From positions 195 through 12,982 of the forward strand of contig PEWQ01000015.1 of assembly GCA_002780065.1 (NCBI GenBank): a DNA stretch of 12,788 bases, given 5' to 3'. The notes beneath the pieces were generated by a model. That model was given only the letters and a program-made list of their open reading frames with translations. It did no database searches and was not told the origin of the DNA. This DNA comes from Candidatus Hydrogenedentes bacterium CG07_land_8_20_14_0_80_42_17. Its GTDB lineage: Bacteria; UBA8481. The translations under genes and the position numbers were made by a program. Positions 5,957-12,788 of the stretch are shown piece by piece. The first letter of the stretch is position 1; each line of letters starts with the position of its first letter.

Positions 5957-6027
5957 CCAAAGAACGTGTGAAACAATTGAAAAATGAAAATTGGAAAAAT
6001 AAAATTTTCAATTTGCACTTTCCAATT
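5957..6027 (+). repeat. Dispersed repeat, copy A (direct repeat of 12661-12731)
   Basis: This 71-bp block, starting CCAAAGAACGTGTGAAA and ending TTTGCACTTTCCAATT, recurs at 12661-12731 in the same orientation with 68 of 71 identical bases (differences at block positions 18, 24 and 31). It contains an internal inverted repeat around AAAATAAAATTTT. In this copy one arm position is mismatched, so the hairpin is imperfect. Similarity may continue a little upstream (TCCACCT against TCCAGCCT) with a gap. It has no coding potential. Confidence 0.85.
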
Positions 6028-6050
6028 TGCAATTTCAAATATAGCGGGAG

Positions 6051-6083: not shown

Positions 6084-6677
6084 TTAAGGTAAACTAACAA
6101 TATCCGCCGTCAAAAGAATCTCCGCGATTTCGTACATGTTCGAGACCCTGCCGACAGCAACTTTTTCTTTCAATCCAAAATAATCAAGACACGTTCCGCA
6201 TAAAATAATATCCGTACCGCTATCAGTCAGCTTTTTTAAATTCTCGATTGCCTGAGGCTCTTCCGTTGCGAGTCTCACACCGGACTGCATCAAAATAATT
6301 ACACCTGGTTTCTTCTCAAGTTCAGTGAGAGTGTAAATAAACGCGAGCAACAATTTTGAACCGAGCTCATCACTGCCTCTGCCGATACGATCCGATGCAA
6401 TGAGCAATGCTTTCTTTTTCGAAAATTCTTCTTTCGCTGAATCAGTCTTTGTTTCAATAAAACTAGTTTTTTTCATCTTGATTCTGTATGCTCCGGAATC
6501 AACAACAATCGACTCGACAGCATACCCTGAATTATCCGCAAACTTCTTCAAATTTTCTTTCGAAGCATCATCGCTGACAAGAATCTCAAACTCACTGATT
6601 CCTTCATCAACAGCCTTCTTTGCTCTAACAATAGGTTGAGGGCAAGAAAGCCCTCTCGCATCAATTACAACACTCAT
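6084..6677 (-). CDS. yedF: YedF-type sulfurtransferase-like selenium metabolism protein
   Basis: 197 residues. The N-terminal TusA/SirA-like domain has DARGLSCPQPIVRAKKAV with the CPxP cysteine at residue 12, which in TusA carries persulfide. A linker with charged residues (about 70-88) leads to a DsrE/DsrF-like domain ending in a CGTCLDYFGL motif (Cys 160 and 163). This two-domain arrangement is the form found with orphan selD genes, where it is presumed to handle sulfur or selenium for the labile selenium cofactor of molybdenum hydroxylases; the exact reaction is not established. The frame runs upstream to 6776, but AAGGAG lies 9 nt before the ATG at 6677 and the TusA fold begins at MSVVIDARG, so this start is chosen. 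It is the last gene of the operon and overlaps DUF3343 by 17 bp. Confidence 0.93.
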   Translation of the reverse strand: MSVVIDARGLSCPQPIVRAKKAVDEGISEFEILVSDDASKENLKKFADNSGYAVESIVVDSGAYRIKMKKTSFIETKTDSAKEEFSKKKALLIASDRIGRGSDELGSKLLLAFIYTLTELEKKPGVIILMQSGVRLATEEPQAIENLKKLTDSGTDIILCGTCLDYFGLKEKVAVGRVSNMYEIAEILLTADIVSLP

Positions 6678-6927
6678 AAATTTTTGCTCCTTTATCAAAA
6701 AATACTCGATAGATTTTTTCGAATCTAAAATCCTTCGTCTTTGCAAATTCGTAAATACTCTCATTCTCCGATTCATGAATCAGAATCGCAAACCCGCACT
6801 CGCTTGCAACAGCTCTTGGAGTCGGCACTATCTCGTGTTTATACCCTGCGTTGTGAGAATCGCGCGCAAACTTTAGCGCGTCATGACTCGATCGAAAAGT
6901 AAAAAGCAATTCAGTTGGGCAGCTCAC
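6661..6927 (-). CDS. DUF3343 small protein, putative selenium/sulfur carrier
   Basis: 88 residues matching the DUF3343 (Se/S carrier-like) family: an N-terminal strand (LLFTFRSSHDALKFA), the central conserved VPTPRAVASECGFAI with the SxCG cysteine near residue 44, and a C-terminal tail ending in a Cys-Cys pair (YECCN). The family accompanies yedF and orphan selD and has been proposed, without proof, to carry reduced selenium or sulfur. It starts with GTG at 6927, sharing GTGA with the selD stop, and its end overlaps the start of yedF by 17 bp, so synthesis of SelD, carrier and YedF is tightly coupled. The function is inferred from context and the conserved cysteine. Confidence 0.88.
   Translation of the reverse strand: MSCPTELLFTFRSSHDALKFARDSHNAGYKHEIVPTPRAVASECGFAILIHESENESIYEFAKTKDFRFEKIYRVFFDKGAKIYECCN
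6687..6692 (-). promoter_or_regulatory. Ribosome binding site deciding the yedF start
   Basis: AAGGAG on the minus strand, 9 nt before the ATG at 6677. It lies within the coding sequence of the upstream DUF3343 gene and supports the 197-residue YedF over the longer frame. Confidence 0.7.
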
Positions 6928-7958
6928 AGTTCCACTCTTATGACTCCAATTTCATTAGTCGTCTCCCCTATCGCATTTGCCGTGTGGCCGGTTTCTTTCA
7001 GCCTAACTAATACTTCCTGATATCTTTCCTTCGATACGGAAAAAAGAAGGCCTCCGGAGGTTTGAGGGTCGAAAAGAATATCGCCGGCGAAAGTCGGAAG
7101 AGTCGACAGCCCATTCACCATCTTTTCTCTGAATTCACGATTGCGATAAGTCCCCGCCGGAATTAATCCTAATCTTGCATATTCGATTGCGCCATCGATT
7201 AGAGGTATCTCGCTGAAGTGAATCGTCAATCCCGCCGAAGAGCCGCATACCATCTCGGCTGCATGTCCGAGCAGTCCAAACCCCGTTACGTCGGTGCATG
7301 CAGACGCATTAGCCGACAACGCAATTTCTGAGGCAATTCGATTTAGTCTCGTCATCTCTTCAATGGATTTTTTTAAAGATGTATCCGAAGCCATTCCTGC
7401 TCGAAGCGCAGTATTAATCAAACCGGTGCCAAGCGGCTTTGACAAAATTAATATTTCATTTTGCTCAATCGTATTATTTCTCATAATTCTTTTCGGATTA
7501 ATAATTCCCGATATGGAAAACCCAAATTTTATTTCGTCATCTTCAATCGAATGTCCGCCGACCAACGCCACTCCTGCGTCAATCAGAGAAATCAATCCGC
7601 CTTCCATCACCTTCCGTAAAACTTCAATATTCATCTTCGATTGCGGAAAGAGAACCACTGATACCGCGGTTAGAGGCTTGCCGCCCATCGAATAGATATC
7701 AGAAAGCGCGTTTGCCGCTGCTATTTTTCCAAATGTTATAGGATCGTCCACAATTGGAGGAAAGAAATCAATCGTCTGAACAAGTGCTAGTTCATCGTTC
7801 AATCGAAATACTCCGGCGTCGTCCGATGCCGCATAACCAACAATGAGTTCAGGATAATTAGGTTGAACAAGACCGCATAATGCCTTATCCAAAAGCCCTG
7901 GGCCCAACTTAGCACCGCATCCTGAAAACTTTGTGTACTCGGTTAAACGTATATCCAT
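6924..7958 (-). CDS. selD: Selenide, water dikinase (selenophosphate synthetase)
   Basis: 344 residues. SelD uses ATP and selenide to make selenophosphate, the selenium donor for selenoproteins, selenouridine in tRNA, or the Mo-hydroxylase cofactor. The active-site loop reads FSGCGAKLGP with C14 and K17, equivalent to C17 and K20 of E. coli SelD; the nucleophile is an ordinary cysteine codon, not selenocysteine. Further family signatures are SDDAGVF, TIDFFPPIVDDP, AAANALSDIYSMGGKPLTA, GGHSIEDDEIKFGFS, TDVTGFGLLGH and FDPQTSGGLLF. A TTG six codons upstream is possible, but the ATG at 7958 is better because it comes 1 nt after the stop of the previous gene. Its position with yqeB, yqeC and yedF, with no selA or selB in view, points to the cofactor branch. 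Confidence 0.96.
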   Translation of the reverse strand: MDIRLTEYTKFSGCGAKLGPGLLDKALCGLVQPNYPELIVGYAASDDAGVFRLNDELALVQTIDFFPPIVDDPITFGKIAAANALSDIYSMGGKPLTAVSVVLFPQSKMNIEVLRKVMEGGLISLIDAGVALVGGHSIEDDEIKFGFSISGIINPKRIMRNNTIEQNEILILSKPLGTGLINTALRAGMASDTSLKKSIEEMTRLNRIASEIALSANASACTDVTGFGLLGHAAEMVCGSSAGLTIHFSEIPLIDGAIEYARLGLIPAGTYRNREFREKMVNGLSTLPTFAGDILFDPQTSGGLLFSVSKERYQEVLVRLKETGHTANAIGETTNEIGVIRVEL

Positions 7959-7959
7959 A

Positions 7960-9093
7960 TCAATTTTCTCTTTCAAATCTCTTTAGAATTTCGAATGCCG
8001 CACCGATCTCATCTTCATTCGTAAAATAACTAAAACTCATTCTGACCGTTCCTTCAGGAAAAGTTCCAATACATTTGTGAGCTCCCGGAGCGCAATGCAA
8101 TCCTCCTCTGACAGCTATTCCAGCGCTATCAAACGCCAAAACAATCTCATCAACCGGAATCTTTCTATGAATAAAAGAAACTATTCCGTGAGCAGAATCA
8201 AAATTTTTTATTTCAAGCTCGTTGATTCCGTGCAGTCCATCGAGAGCAAAGCCGGTCAGAATTTTAATACGTTTTTCAATTTCTGAAATATTTATCTTCA
8301 TAATAAAATCAAGAGCCGCTGACAATCCTGCTATGCCGGATAAATTCTGCGTACCCGATTCCATTTTGTCAGGCATGAATTCAGGCTGAGACTCTTCGCT
8401 CGACTTAGAGCCTGTTCCACCGAGGATCAGCGGTTCTATTTCTAACCCTTCTCTCACGTAAAGAAAGCCTGTTCCTGCAGGTCCCAGCAAGCCTTTATGT
8501 CCTGACGCCAAAATAAAATCAACGTTTGAAGCCGCATCTTTTAAATCCAGAGTTCCAACCGCCTGCGAAGCGTCAAGACAAAAAAGCGATCGATTCGAAT
8601 GAGTAAGTTCACTCATCTCGTGCCATGGAAAAACAGCTCCGGTCACGTTAGAAACCGCAGTAACTATCACAAGCGTCGGGTGCATCGAAACAGCACAGCG
8701 AAAATCATCGAGGCTCGGTCGGCAGTACTGGTCGCATTTGAAACGTATAATCTCTATATTTTTTTTTCGATTCAAAAAGTTTAATGGTCTCATAACAGAA
8801 TTGTGTTCGCACTGTGAGACAAGAACTTTCCCGCCGTTTTCCATGACACTGCGAATGACAGTATTCAAAGCCATTGTCGCTCCAGAAGTAAATACAATTC
8901 TTGAAGAGTCTGTTGCGCCTATCAGGTTTGAAAGTTTTTCGCGAGTCTCAAAAAGAATTCGGTCGTTGTCAAGAGTGCCTGAATGCGATGAGCGGGAAGA
9001 ATTTCCTGCACAATTTTCGATATGTCTTTTTACAGCCTCTGCCACGCCAGGTGCCTTTGGAAATGAAGTTGAAGCATTATCAAGATAAATCAT
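7960..9093 (-). CDS. Cysteine desulfurase family protein (class V aminotransferase fold)
   Basis: 377 residues. This PLP enzyme is expected to take sulfur from cysteine or selenium from selenocysteine, forming an enzyme-bound persulfide or selenide. Visible are the N-terminal YLDNASTSFPK, GAT at about 71-73, the PLP-stacking His in SQCEHNSVM (H97), LDASQAVG (D174 and Q177), the Schiff-base Lys in ASGHKGLLGP (K200), and the mobile-loop cysteine in RGGLHCAPGAHK (C334). The GLHCAP loop and the neighbours match the branch known from selenium-hydroxylase clusters (the Enterococcus EF2568-like group) rather than housekeeping IscS. It probably feeds SelD, which starts 1 nt downstream. Its ATG shares ATGA with the yqeC stop. 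Sulfur or selenium preference cannot be read from sequence. Confidence 0.92.
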   Translation of the reverse strand: MIYLDNASTSFPKAPGVAEAVKRHIENCAGNSSRSSHSGTLDNDRILFETREKLSNLIGATDSSRIVFTSGATMALNTVIRSVMENGGKVLVSQCEHNSVMRPLNFLNRKKNIEIIRFKCDQYCRPSLDDFRCAVSMHPTLVIVTAVSNVTGAVFPWHEMSELTHSNRSLFCLDASQAVGTLDLKDAASNVDFILASGHKGLLGPAGTGFLYVREGLEIEPLILGGTGSKSSEESQPEFMPDKMESGTQNLSGIAGLSAALDFIMKINISEIEKRIKILTGFALDGLHGINELEIKNFDSAHGIVSFIHRKIPVDEIVLAFDSAGIAVRGGLHCAPGAHKCIGTFPEGTVRMSFSYFTNEDEIGAAFEILKRFEREN

Positions 9094-9863
9094 CGAAGAA
9101 TCTCTTCGAAATATTCGGAGTGAATATCCCCGATGCCTACTCTGGATATTTCAGAATGTTTTAGGAGTAAAGCCGCAAGCTTTAGAGCATTATCCTTTCT
9201 TTCATCGGAAGAGACTTTGTTTATAAAAACTATTCGCTCTGATTTTAAAGAAATCTTGTTCGGCTTGAAATAGAATTCCGTAATCAATTCTGCAACATGC
9301 TCAATTTCTATTCTCGAATTTATTTGATGCCATAAAGTTTCGGCAAAAAGTTTGCTTCTGTGGAAAATATCTTCTGATAAAGGCGCGCCCAAAACTTCAG
9401 CTCCAACAACCGCAATCACTCGTTCTGCTTCGGCATCTACTACAGGATCAGAATCAACATGAAACTTCAACGGTCTGCCTGCGGCGCCGTCGGCTTCAAC
9501 TAAAAAAACATCCGCAGAATTTTGCTTCCATAAGCCTCTAAAATATTCTGGAGCATGACCTACCAGCTTTCCCTTTTGTTTATCGTTTTTAAACGCGAGC
9601 GTCACAATTCCATATTTATTCGCCAATGCTCGGACGTTAGACGCCTCAGGAGAGCCAATATGAAGATGTTGAGTTTCTTTTGACGATGGAACTAAAATAT
9701 GAGTCGTCGTGCCGGTCACAACTTTTTTTCCGTTTCTGAATAAAATATCCGCGAGTTTGTAAATAAGAGTTGTCTTTCCTCCGCCGCCAATAAAAAAAAT
9801 AAATCCTGTTCCATTAATGAAAAATTTTGAAAGAGGCCTTTCGAAATGAGCGTTATCGTTCAT
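9090..9863 (-). CDS. yqeC: YqeC, selenium-dependent hydroxylase accessory protein
   Basis: 257 residues. A P-loop FFIGGGGKTTLIYKLA (Walker A at about 26-32) is followed by TGTTTHI and a conserved acidic motif FLVEADGAAGRPLK (E123 and D125), the signature of the YqeC family. These proteins occur with selenium-dependent molybdenum hydroxylases and are assumed to act in nucleotide-dependent maturation of their cofactor; the exact step is unknown. The start ATG abuts the TAA of yqeB directly, with an AGG ribosome site inside the end of yqeB, and the stop overlaps the next ATG (ATGA). Length and motifs are intact. Confidence 0.92.
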   Translation of the reverse strand: MNDNAHFERPLSKFFINGTGFIFFIGGGGKTTLIYKLADILFRNGKKVVTGTTTHILVPSSKETQHLHIGSPEASNVRALANKYGIVTLAFKNDKQKGKLVGHAPEYFRGLWKQNSADVFLVEADGAAGRPLKFHVDSDPVVDAEAERVIAVVGAEVLGAPLSEDIFHRSKLFAETLWHQINSRIEIEHVAELITEFYFKPNKISLKSERIVFINKVSSDERKDNALKLAALLLKHSEISRVGIGDIHSEYFEEILR

Positions 9864-10652
9864 TTAAAGCCTCCCACTTTTGTTCGACAAAATCGCTTCC
9901 AAAACTCCACCGCTTATCGTTCTTGTTTTATCCGATAGAGTAAAGCAATACGAAGGCTCTAGCCTTGGATCAATGTCTCCTAATTTAGTGTTTTGACTAA
10001 CATTAATTCCATCATGCAAAAGTCCTCTGACCACTCCTTTCAGAAGAGAACTTATCTCGCGTTCTCCAACTCTGCAAACAGCGTCACCCTTTTCGACAGC
10101 ATCGCCGATATTTCGAAGCGACTTAAATATGCCGTCGCACGGAGCTCTTAAAATTCTGTATTCGGATTCTCCTCTGATAGATCCCGGAGTTCCAGTATCC
10201 GGTTCAGCTTCTCCGTTAAAAATTATCTTTCCAAGATTGTGGCCTCTATTGGTTTCAATCACCACATCGCAATGTATTCCCGCAGTAAACCCTGGCCCAA
10301 GTCCTATCACAAAAGAAGCATCGCCCTTTCTCGTTTCGATATCGCGCTTTTTTAATCTAGCATCAATAAGAATGGACGGTTTTAAAATTCGCAGCGAGTT
10401 CAAATTCGGATCAATAATCACGTTTACTACGTTCCAATCGAGTGCATCAATCGAATCGATTTTCTTGCCAATCACACCTTCAACTTCGGCTATTCCTCCA
10501 AATATTGCGGAAGAAAACGATACCATCCGTCTGACGCACAAAGGCATTTCAAGCTCAGTCATTAATATTCTGAAGCCGGCTTTAAATAGTCTATGAGCAG
10601 TTCCCGAAGCATGTTCTCCTGCTCCGCGTATAAGCACAATTTCATTCATCAT
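9864..10652 (-). CDS. yqeB: YqeB, selenium-dependent molybdenum cofactor biosynthesis protein
   Basis: 262 residues from the ATG at 10652; an ATG at 10649 and a TTG at 10661 are alternatives. The N-terminus has a dinucleotide-binding-like strand and loop IVLIRGAGEHASGTAHRL, as in XdhC-related proteins. It continues with DARLKKRD, FVIGLGPGFTAGIHCDVVIETNRGH and a C-terminal biotinyl-like part (APCDGIFKSLRNIGDAVEKG, then GVVRGLLHDG). This set of motifs defines the YqeB family of the Mo/Se hydroxylase system, thought to modify or deliver the selenium-containing molybdenum cofactor. It is the first gene of the tightly packed block and is preceded by an 80-bp gap with a probable operator and promoter. 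Confidence 0.93.
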   Translation of the reverse strand: MMNEIVLIRGAGEHASGTAHRLFKAGFRILMTELEMPLCVRRMVSFSSAIFGGIAEVEGVIGKKIDSIDALDWNVVNVIIDPNLNSLRILKPSILIDARLKKRDIETRKGDASFVIGLGPGFTAGIHCDVVIETNRGHNLGKIIFNGEAEPDTGTPGSIRGESEYRILRAPCDGIFKSLRNIGDAVEKGDAVCRVGEREISSLLKGVVRGLLHDGINVSQNTKLGDIDPRLEPSYCFTLSDKTRTISGGVLEAILSNKSGRL

Positions 10653-10681
10653 CTCAACCAAGCCCGTAACGTTTCACAAAT

Positions 10682-10707
10682 TCGATATTCGTATATGAGT
10701 ATATCGA
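10682..10707. promoter_or_regulatory. ModE-like operator overlapping the yqeB promoter
   Basis: A 26-bp inverted repeat has perfect 7-bp outer arms TCGATAT and ATATCGA, separated by 12 nt. In total 10 of 13 base pairs are symmetric. The CGA/TAT arms resemble the TATA-rich ModE boxes known from other bacteria, as I recall them. On the minus strand it covers TATACT (10698-10703), a good -10 hexamer, and ends 29 nt before the yqeB ATG, so binding there should affect transcription of yqeB and the genes after it. The -35 match is poor. The regulator gene lies immediately upstream. Confidence 0.55.
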
Positions 10708-10732: not shown

Positions 10733-11077
10733 TCACCGTTTAAAATATGCTAATAAACTTTTTTCTGATTTTTTAACAAATGAAATGCAATTTTTTCGAG
10801 TCGAAATAAATGTCTTCAGCAGGCGTTTCGCATCCGGAGTCAATATCGCGGATCCCTTCTTTCTTCCGCCTTTTTCGCAATGCAATGCCTTTTTGCCTAA
10901 CGCGCGCTCAAAATTTCTTATTATTTTCCATGCCTTGGAATAAGCCATATTCATGCTGCGCGCCGCTGAAGCGATTGTTCCTGTCTCTTCAACCAGCATG
11001 AGCAATTCGGCAATGCCGTCACCGAAAACTCTTCTTCCTTTTGAATCTATTATTCTAACCGACACTTTTAAATGCAT
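10733..11077 (-). CDS. ModE-type DNA-binding regulator lacking molybdate-sensing domains
   Basis: 114 residues. It matches the N-terminal winged helix-turn-helix of ModE: the opening strand VSVRIIDSKGRRVFGDGIAELLMLVEETG, the helix-turn-helix TIASAARSMNMAYSKAWKIIRNFE (about 34-57), and a wing with GGRKKGSAILT (about 70-80). Full ModE is about 260 residues with two C-terminal molybdate-binding (MOP) domains; none is present, and the protein ends in a lysine-rich helix. Short forms like this are widespread, and their signal is often unknown. It is the first gene of the minus-strand set, 80 bp from yqeB. The gap holds an inverted repeat fitting such a protein, so it probably controls yqeB to yedF and perhaps the divergent deaminase. 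No good Shine-Dalgarno sequence precedes its ATG. Confidence 0.88.
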   Translation of the reverse strand: MHLKVSVRIIDSKGRRVFGDGIAELLMLVEETGTIASAARSMNMAYSKAWKIIRNFERALGKKALHCEKGGRKKGSAILTPDAKRLLKTFISTRKNCISFVKKSEKSLLAYFKR

Positions 11078-11162
11078 ATAATAATTTTACTTCAATATTA
11101 ATCGAGAAGCATTTGATTTTTCGAAAAGTTTATTTATTCTTTTGTTATTCACGGAGGTAATG
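11078..11162. promoter_or_regulatory. Divergent promoter region between regulator and deaminase
   Basis: 85 bp, AT-rich. On the plus strand TTGATT (11113-11118) and TATTCT (11135-11140) with 16-nt spacing could drive the deaminase. A 10-bp perfect palindrome TTTTCGAAAA (11118-11127) lies between these hexamers and could be an operator. A minus-strand promoter for the regulator is not clear; TAATAT about 17 nt before its ATG is a weak candidate. Confidence 0.35.
11153..11157 (+). promoter_or_regulatory. Strong ribosome binding site of the deaminase
   Basis: GGAGG lies 5 nt before the ATG at 11163 and only 2 nt before the ATG at 11160. This makes 11163 the better start, and excludes the TTG at 11142, which lies upstream of the site. 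Confidence 0.8.
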
Positions 11163-12539
11163 ATGTCAAAAGTTCTCATAAAAAACATTAAGTATCTACT
11201 AACCATGTCTGACGGCGTGGAAAATAATCTGCAAGGCGCTTCGATTTTAATTGAAGGTCCGGAAATTAAAAAAATTTACATGCGAAACGATGAGCTTCCT
11301 GAATCTCCAGACGTTGCTGTGATTGACGCAGATCATCATCTCGTAATGCCAGGGCTCGTCAACTGCCATCATCATTTCTACCAGACTTTGACTCGAAACC
11401 TTCCGGGATGCGCAGACGCAAAACTGTTTGACTGGCTTCTTTACCTTTACGACATCTGGGCTGAAATGACTCCGGAGGATATTCATGACGCGTCGGCGAT
11501 AGCTGCGGCGGAATTGATTCTTTCAGGTTGCACAACTGCGCTAGATCATTTCTATGTTTTTCCACGCGGAGACAATTCGTGTTTCGACGCTGAAGTTGAA
11601 GGCGTGCGGCAAACCGGGCTTCGGCTTCATCTCACTCGAGGTTCCATGAGCCGTTCAAAGAAAGACGGCGGGCTTCCGCCCGATTCTGTCGTGCAGACTG
11701 ACAAGGAGATCATGAACCATACTGAAGAAATGGTATCAAAATATCACGATGCAGATCGATTCGGAATGTTGCGCGTAGTTCCTGCTCCATGTTCGCCGTT
11801 CTCGGTCTCAACTGAAATTATGCGCGAAACTGCGGAATTCGCCAAAGCTAATGACTTGACAATTCATACTCATCTTGCGGAAACAGAAGACGAAGAGGAT
11901 TTTTGCGTTAAAATGTTCGGCAAGCGGCCGGTAGATTACATCGAGAGCGTTGGTTGGCTGACCGAAGGAGCGATATTCGCTCATTCGGTTTGGGTTAATT
12001 CGGCAGAGATTAAAAGATACGCAAAACACAAATGCGGTATAGCTCATTGTCCGTCTTCAAATATGCGGCTCGGATCCGGTATCGCTCCGATTGTCGAGAT
12101 GCTTAAGGAAGGAGTTCGAGTCGGACTTGGAGTTGACGGGTCCGCGTCTAACGACTCTTCGCACATGATTCAAGAGATGAGACAATGCATGCTGCTTCAG
12201 AGGGTTAAATACGGAGCAGACGCTTTGAGCGTCAGAGATACAATTCGAATCGCAACAAAAGGCGGAGCTGAAGTTTTGCGGCGCGACGATATCGGAGAAA
12301 TAAGGCCGGGATTCGCCGCAGATTTAATCGGAGTTGACCTCAACAAAATCTGGTATGCCGGAGCTCAAAGCGATCCCCCCGGCGCATTAGCATTATGCCA
12401 CACAGACACGATCGACTTTTCCGTTATCAACGGTAAGGTCGTTGCGCTAAATGGAAAATTGACCGGACTTGATCTCTCAGCCTTAATTAAACGCCACAAT
12501 AAAAATGCAGAGGCTCTTTACAAACGCGCGAGAAAGTAA
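11163..12539 (+). CDS. 8-oxoguanine deaminase-like amidohydrolase
   Basis: 458 residues, amidohydrolase superfamily (cytosine deaminase/TrzN branch). The family reaction is hydrolytic deamination of 8-oxoguanine to urate and ammonia. Metal and catalytic residues: HxH in NCHHHFYQTLTR (H69 and H71), HTHLAE (H237 and E240), AHSVW (H274) and VDGSASND (D325). Stretches such as LTRGSMSRSKKDGGLPPDSV, APCSPFSVSTEIMRETA, DEEDFCVKMFGKRPVDY and AHCPSSNMRLGSGIAPI match, from memory, the characterised Pseudomonas 8-oxoguanine deaminase closely; guanine deaminase, SsnA and atrazine-type hydrolases fit less well. Divergent from the ModE-like gene and the Mo/Se maturation operon, it suggests a purine-degrading pathway shared with a molybdenum hydroxylase encoded elsewhere. 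Substrate assignment by motif similarity is good but not proof. Confidence 0.88.
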   Translation: MSKVLIKNIKYLLTMSDGVENNLQGASILIEGPEIKKIYMRNDELPESPDVAVIDADHHLVMPGLVNCHHHFYQTLTRNLPGCADAKLFDWLLYLYDIWAEMTPEDIHDASAIAAAELILSGCTTALDHFYVFPRGDNSCFDAEVEGVRQTGLRLHLTRGSMSRSKKDGGLPPDSVVQTDKEIMNHTEEMVSKYHDADRFGMLRVVPAPCSPFSVSTEIMRETAEFAKANDLTIHTHLAETEDEEDFCVKMFGKRPVDYIESVGWLTEGAIFAHSVWVNSAEIKRYAKHKCGIAHCPSSNMRLGSGIAPIVEMLKEGVRVGLGVDGSASNDSSHMIQEMRQCMLLQRVKYGADALSVRDTIRIATKGGAEVLRRDDIGEIRPGFAADLIGVDLNKIWYAGAQSDPPGALALCHTDTIDFSVINGKVVALNGKLTGLDLSALIKRHNKNAEALYKRARK

Positions 12540-12660: not shown

Positions 12661-12731
12661 CCAAAGAACGTGTGAAATAATTGCAAAATGCAAATTGGAA
12701 AAATAAAATTTTCAATTTGCACTTTCCAATT
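12661..12731 (+). repeat. Dispersed repeat, copy B (direct repeat of 5957-6027)
   Basis: 71 bp with 68 bases identical to copy A, same orientation, 6704 bp away. In this copy the inner hairpin is complete: TGCAAATTG and AAAA pair with TTTTCAATTTGCA with one bulged G (13 pairs). The three differences from copy A include a change that mismatches the arm there, so B may be closer to the intact form. It continues into tandem units. Confidence 0.85.
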
Positions 12732-12788
12732 ACCAATTTGCACTTTCCAATTTCCAATTTGCACTTTCCAATTTTCAATTTGCACTTT
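12710..12788 (+). repeat. 21-bp tandem repeat array, continues beyond window
   Basis: Three full units (12710-12730, 12731-12751 and 12752-12772) and 16 bases of a fourth, all of the form TNNCAATTTGCACTTTCCAAT. They differ only at the second and third base (TT, AC, TC, then TT). Copy A has just one such unit. The period is exact, with no spacers. Confidence 0.85.

Follow-up and report, generated by a model that had tools for sequence, protein, structure and literature searches.

The closest described counterparts of the locus studied here are ModE-type regulators, and among the single-domain forms these include the proteins of Agrobacterium tumefaciens, Desulfovibrio and Campylobacter jejuni, the last of which we take to be single-domain. 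The A. tumefaciens protein is reportedly linked to molybdenum-cofactor status and not to molybdate. It is HTH-only (structure 2IJL) and similar in length to the regulator of our locus, and the Desulfovibrio protein is likewise HTH-only, unlike our locus in its predicted motif, CGGTCACG-N14-CGTGACCG (PMC545781). For the C. jejuni ModE-like protein we rely on Taveirne 2009 as cited in PMC7759655, and, unlike our locus, none of these single-domain proteins has a selenium-gene setting in the descriptions consulted. For the E. coli-type ModE box, the consensus has been published as ATCGNTATATA-N6-TATATANCGAT (PMC545781), and a similar consensus is also quoted in PMC2700814. A ModE-type gene beside the same selenium-cofactor genes as in our locus has been noted in E. 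faecalis, where EF2572 adjoins the selD/yqeB/yqeC/xdh cluster (Zhang 2008, PMC2432076; Haft and Self 2008, PMC2276186), but no operator or regulon was given there, and ModE was noted just as wider in distribution than SelD. LysR_Se/HrsM (Lin 2015, PMC5322559) is also a winged-helix regulator near selenium genes; unlike our protein, it is a full-length LysR with a C-terminal substrate domain and is associated with selenocysteine genes. C. difficile yqeB has been given a SigL promoter and a predicted link to DioR (PMC11448449). In the open-access literature searched, we found no earlier description of a ModE-type operator at yqeB, selD or yedE.

The window, which is the whole 12,788-nucleotide stretch of DNA analysed from Candidatus Hydrogenedentes bacterium, carries the following features:

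6084 to 6776, minus strand: yedF, sulfurtransferase-like selenium protein (TIGR03527, 195 bits)
6661 to 6927, minus strand: Se/S carrier protein-like gene (DUF3343; PF11823)
6924 to 7976, minus strand: selD, selenophosphate synthetase (TIGR00476, 365 bits)
7960 to 9093, minus strand: cysteine desulfurase/selenocysteine lyase-like gene (TIGR01977, 364 bits, just under the cut-off of 377; PF00266)
9090 to 9863, minus strand: yqeC, selenium-cofactor biosynthesis protein (TIGR03172, 147 bits; PF19842)
9864 to 10661, minus strand: yqeB, which heads the probably controlled operon (TIGR03309, 317 bits, cut-off 220)
10682 to 10707, no strand: palindrome TCGATATTCGTATATGAGTATATCGA, an inverted repeat with 7-bp perfect arms
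10683 to 10706, no strand: putative ModE-type operator core CGATATTCGTATATGAGTATATCG, 24 bp, CGnTAT-N12-ATAnCG (PWM, independent sequence model and published geometry)
10698 to 10703, minus strand: candidate -10 hexamer TATACT inside the putative operator (8/12 with the -35 TTCTTA at 10725-10720, 16-bp spacer)
10733 to 11077, minus strand: single-domain ModE-like winged-helix regulator, 114 aa (TIGR00637, AF2, 2IJL)
11142 to 12539, divergent from the regulator: 8-oxoguanine deaminase (NF006055, 599 bits, cut-off 532)

Read along the minus strand, the order is regulator, repeat, yqeB, yqeC, the cysteine desulfurase/selenocysteine lyase-like gene, selD, DUF3343 and yedF, with TIGR03309, TIGR03172 and TIGR00476 in one strand-consistent run, as in an SDMH selenium-cofactor operon. 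The frame of yqeB starts with TTG at 10661 and its likely start codon is an ATG at 10652 or 10649, while the real start of yedF is probably internal because the matched domain begins at about residue 37 of the ORF. The divergent gene at 11142-12539 was rejected as SsnA, as it fails the SsnA model (148 bits vs 455), and is a metal hydrolase of the SsnA superfamily; as an 8-oxoguanine deaminase, which makes urate, it fits a purine-breakdown role of the selenium operon. A tandem array of the unit AATTTCCAATTTGCACTTTCC (3.9 copies, 12707-12788) reaches the window end, and a short related array lies at 6003-6040, at the opposite end of the selenium operon.

The palindrome, TCGATAT-N12-ATATCGA, occurs once in the window and sits in the 71 bp that separate the regulator's stop codon from the yqeB ORF, so that both the repeat and its position between regulator and operon are as the original prediction had described them. 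Within it, two CGnTAT half-sites form an inverted repeat spanning 24 bp (CGATAT-N12-ATATCG, 10683-10706), which is the half-site geometry of the E. coli-type ModE consensus, and 13/20 letters of that consensus agree (PMC545781). The original prediction had not named this motif. The inner TATATA arms of the consensus are kept at 3/6 positions on the left (TATTCG) and 4/6 on the right (AGTATA), and the A/T at the outer positions is retained only in part (TT/AG in the window). The likeness to the E. coli modABC operator lies in the 24-bp geometry, in the winged-helix DNA-binding domain and in a site beside genes of the molybdenum/molybdopterin system, whereas the window differs in the partly diverged inner and outer bases, in a regulator that does not have the two molybdate-binding domains of E. 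coli ModE, and in having a selenium-cofactor operon as its putative target.

To estimate chance expectation, we used 3000 simulated gaps with the length and composition of the real one. An inverted repeat of at least 7 bp with a spacer of at most 20 was present in 21% of them, so the bare 7-bp repeat is not significant, and this figure speaks for reading the palindrome as a product of chance in an AT-rich gap, or else as the site of another factor or an RNA hairpin. The pattern CGnTAT-N12-ATAnCG, on the other hand, was found in 0/3000 simulated gaps, and in 0.6% when up to one mismatch was allowed. In the organism's own 2.39-Mb genome, the box pattern has 4 matches versus 6 for a reversed control pattern, so the degenerate pattern is uninformative genome-wide by itself, and we turned to scored models and to gene context. 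Of these 4 matches, only that in the window is intergenic, the other three lying within coding frames. With a symmetrised PWM trained on sites beside ModE-like genes of other genomes, the window being excluded, the window site scored 20.6 bits and the runner-up in the window 7.2, a margin of 13 bits; maxima elsewhere were 17.3 in 1 Mb of simulated DNA and 11.2 in 65 kb of own-genome contigs. A false positive of equal score does occur in the own genome, as a box inside an RNA-methyltransferase-like gene (L004) reaches 20.9 bits. A second sequence model, built from 33 sites with the window left out and run over all 2.39 Mb, returned the window site as its sole match at E<=10, with an E-value of 9.6 that is not significant alone.

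The exact ModE-box geometry and the top rank given by two models built without the window site argue against a chance repeat, as does the recurrence of the box at yqeB of other genomes described below. For a terminator or RNA hairpin, we found no U-run and no terminator, and folding is no better than that of shuffles (z-score -0.10), so this candidate was rejected. Taken with the chance repeat and the site of another factor, we hold this group of explanations to be very improbable. The original prediction had also laid the repeat over the -10 region of yqeB: the hexamer TATACT is indeed present (10703-10698, minus strand), but the promoter match is not above chance. A consensus scan gave no promoter on the yqeB strand, and we rejected a sigma-70 promoter as independent support because the match does not exceed shuffles; an overlap of the putative operator with the yqeB -10 is plausible at a level not above chance.

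The adjacent regulator matches TIGR00637 with 55.4 bits (E 4.8e-15), below the curated cut-off of 98.5, and the same model is matched by 29/29 family members scanned. HTH_1 is its sole Pfam match, with no molybdate-binding TOBE/molbindin domain in the 114 aa, which agrees with the expectation that the protein is without such a domain, and neither a LysR substrate-binding domain nor NF040786 was matched. The AF2 model (pLDDT 94) has its best full-length structure match in the single-domain A. tumefaciens ModE 2IJL (TM 0.77-0.80, E about 1e-5; phmmer 1.2e-10), and 1B9M and 1O7L were also matched, with a TM of about 0.67 for E. coli ModE. The protein is thus a stand-alone ModE winged-helix fold within the length range of about 105-135 aa. 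The helix MNMAYSKAW is near-invariant across the family, partly since this peptide was the search pattern. In a tree, the regulator is placed in the clostridial group (99/99 for the wider group), where its branch is long, with identities of at most 41%. HTH-only relatives of 104-137 aa with the recognition helix preserved are widespread, and the description of the regulator as truncated was not borne out: judged by these comparisons, it is a member of a widespread single-domain ModE-like family and not a decayed gene.

The same relatives bear on whether the box could be used by a full-length ModE encoded elsewhere, with the small protein as a relic. Such a gene could be missing from the assembly, because this is 87% complete and in 207 contigs. 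The 114-aa regulator is, however, the only ModE-like protein found in the genome, where TOBE matches are confined to two frames of 377 and 398 aa that are probably ABC ATPases, with no small molbindin-type protein among them, and a relic is at odds with how widespread HTH-only relatives with an intact recognition helix are. We therefore regard a full-length ModE acting here as very improbable.

When 85,000 species genomes were scanned with the regulator, 41 loci were obtained, most of them clostridial, and about half have yqeB, selD, yedF or yqeC near the regulator gene. We combined the scan loci with those of genomes drawn as relatives, which gave 57 upstream regions (300 bp) of ModE-like genes; 16/57 contain a box with no more than one mismatch, and three control patterns matched in length gave 0/57 apiece. 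In 12 clostridial genomes chosen for having the regulator and a site near it, CGTTAT-N12-ATAACG occurs 27 times versus 1 for the control. Conservation of the palindrome in related genomes had been set beforehand as the test that could refute the prediction, and the outcome did not refute it: five or more further genomes (L043, L060, L066, L107, L119/L149) have the box directly before yqeB. The ModE-type box also recurs across genomes before other genes of the same functions. In Clostridia it precedes modE-like genes (L028, L032, L034, L037, L039, L041, L046, L054), and at most of these loci it heads a selD-yedF-yqeB or yqeB operon. It is further found before yqeC (L038, L048), before the yedE selenium transporter (L032, L066, L105, and L041 by position and similarity), before XdhA (L045) and Se-dependent xanthine dehydrogenase (L048, L102), before modA-type binding proteins (L046, L106, L110, L111, L116), before MoeA-like proteins (L046, L098, L108, L112, L113, L115) and before Fec/Btu-type ABC transport genes (L040, L099, L109). 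Apparently unrelated sites were seen as well (L097, within a helicase gene; L104; L114). Since the same site precedes molybdenum and selenium genes in gut Clostridia, the two elements are probably connected through one regulator, and the proposed link of molybdenum-type regulation to selenium-cofactor assembly gains support from these genomes.

Closer to the window, the comparison within its own phylum consists of two genomes, the other one having neither yqeB nor the regulator. In the own genome, no strong box was found near four Mo-hydroxylase genes or at the mod genes. A weak box (L078:5784; 8.5 bits, two mismatches) lies upstream of a MobA-like/porin/modABC operon (C194); as a further target it is unconvincing once the number of promoters inspected is allowed for.

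We also used a stricter sample of 148 evenly drawn genomes from one clostridial class, in which yqeB was above the cut-off in 14 genomes and the regulator was present in 7 of these 14. Box counts in this sample were not above control once the training genome was set aside, and the perfect box was absent from 4/7 regulator-positive genomes; the motif is thus not universal for the family. In non-training regulator-positive genomes, 4/4 boxes stand at linked genes, and in regulator-negative genomes 2/2 stand at unlinked genes, a post hoc reading of six sites in total. The four linked sites are at yqeB, in a modE-like/NTPase_1 gap arranged as in the window, at NTPase_1, and at a metal-type ABC binding protein on the regulator's contig.

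Two protein families were seen repeatedly in this setting. NTPase_1 proteins (PF03266, THEP1-type) lie beside modE-like genes or directly behind a box (L153:913-1452, L150:1554-2084, L139:1864-2463), and NTPase_1 may belong to the Mo/Se system without having been recognised as such. Fec/Btu-type ABC binding proteins (PF01497) are located behind or near a box (L154:402-1478, L109:2081-3346, L040:7075-8178) and are candidate transporters of molybdate, tungstate or selenium compounds.

The scored models and the recurrence of the box beside the same regulator family support the candidate operator, and it is very probable that the small ModE-type repressor encoded alongside binds the palindrome. 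Most likely, it serves as a ModE-type operator at which a homodimer of the adjacent protein would repress the yqeB operon when the molybdenum-cofactor system is satisfied. The homodimer of the single-domain protein would bind the two CGnTAT half-sites and cover the promoter/start region of the yqeB-yqeC-csd-selD-DUF3343-yedF operon, and selenium-cofactor assembly would be shut off once molybdenum-cofactor demand is met. The anatomy of the site suggests that repression would occur by occlusion, with the box lying over the weak -10-like hexamer and its edge about 30 bp short of the yqeB start. E. coli ModE activates moaA, and the same operator and regulator could in principle activate the yqeB operon in this manner, which would suit the boxes upstream of biosynthesis genes (moeA-like). 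However, occlusion is favoured by the placement of the boxes: in the window the box is centred about 43 bp from where yqeB translation probably starts, on top of the likely transcription start, and elsewhere the distance to the start codon is about 19-60 bp. The same box is also found at molybdate-uptake genes, which are classically repressed. Activation is thus an unlikely mode at this operon.

As the regulator is without molbindin domains, the signal for repression would probably come through a cofactor-maturation protein (YqeC or a MobA-like transferase) or through expression level. HTH-YqeC fusions with a complete YqeC domain are encoded in Lachnospiraceae MAGs (L043:4224-5318, L059:9935-11056), and an HTH-MobA-like NTP transferase (PF12804) fusion in [Clostridium] aminophilum (L051:10001-10999, box 106 bp upstream); all three have a perfect box upstream, at 106-173 bp. 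If fusion partners share a pathway step, maturation proteins may carry the sensing, because they are fused to the HTH elsewhere. Fusions of selD-neighbouring families with HP1/HP2 (YqeB/YqeC) were mentioned in 2008 (PMC2432076). Other composite frames include one of 441 aa that joins MoaC to YqeB (L043:2668-3993; MoaC and TIGR03309 above cut-off) and one of 483 aa in which a periplasmic-binding domain (PF01497) follows a ModE-type HTH, a possible fusion (L015, G091). A wider proposal, which we put forward tentatively and consider somewhat doubtful, is that the single-domain ModE family may be a joint molybdenum-selenium regulator whose sensor is the cofactor-maturation machinery (YqeC or MobA-like). 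If true, YqeC/MobA-like proteins, joined to the HTH in some lineages but encoded apart from it in the window, would signal to it how the seleno-molybdopterin cofactor stands, and expression of yqeB/selD/yedE and of molybdenum uptake would be set accordingly.

The above analyses support an operator whose kind is known but whose setting is new, in which a single-domain ModE family would join molybdenum and selenium-cofactor genes. The third use of selenium is as the labile cofactor of Se-dependent molybdenum hydroxylases, involved in purine breakdown in the gut, and the operator together with the regulator family would provide for this use a testable regulon of molybdate uptake, molybdopterin synthesis, selenium transport and selenium-cofactor insertion. 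The box may be used for finding uncharacterised partners, and it may offer a handle on sensing by ModE proteins that have no molybdate-binding domain.
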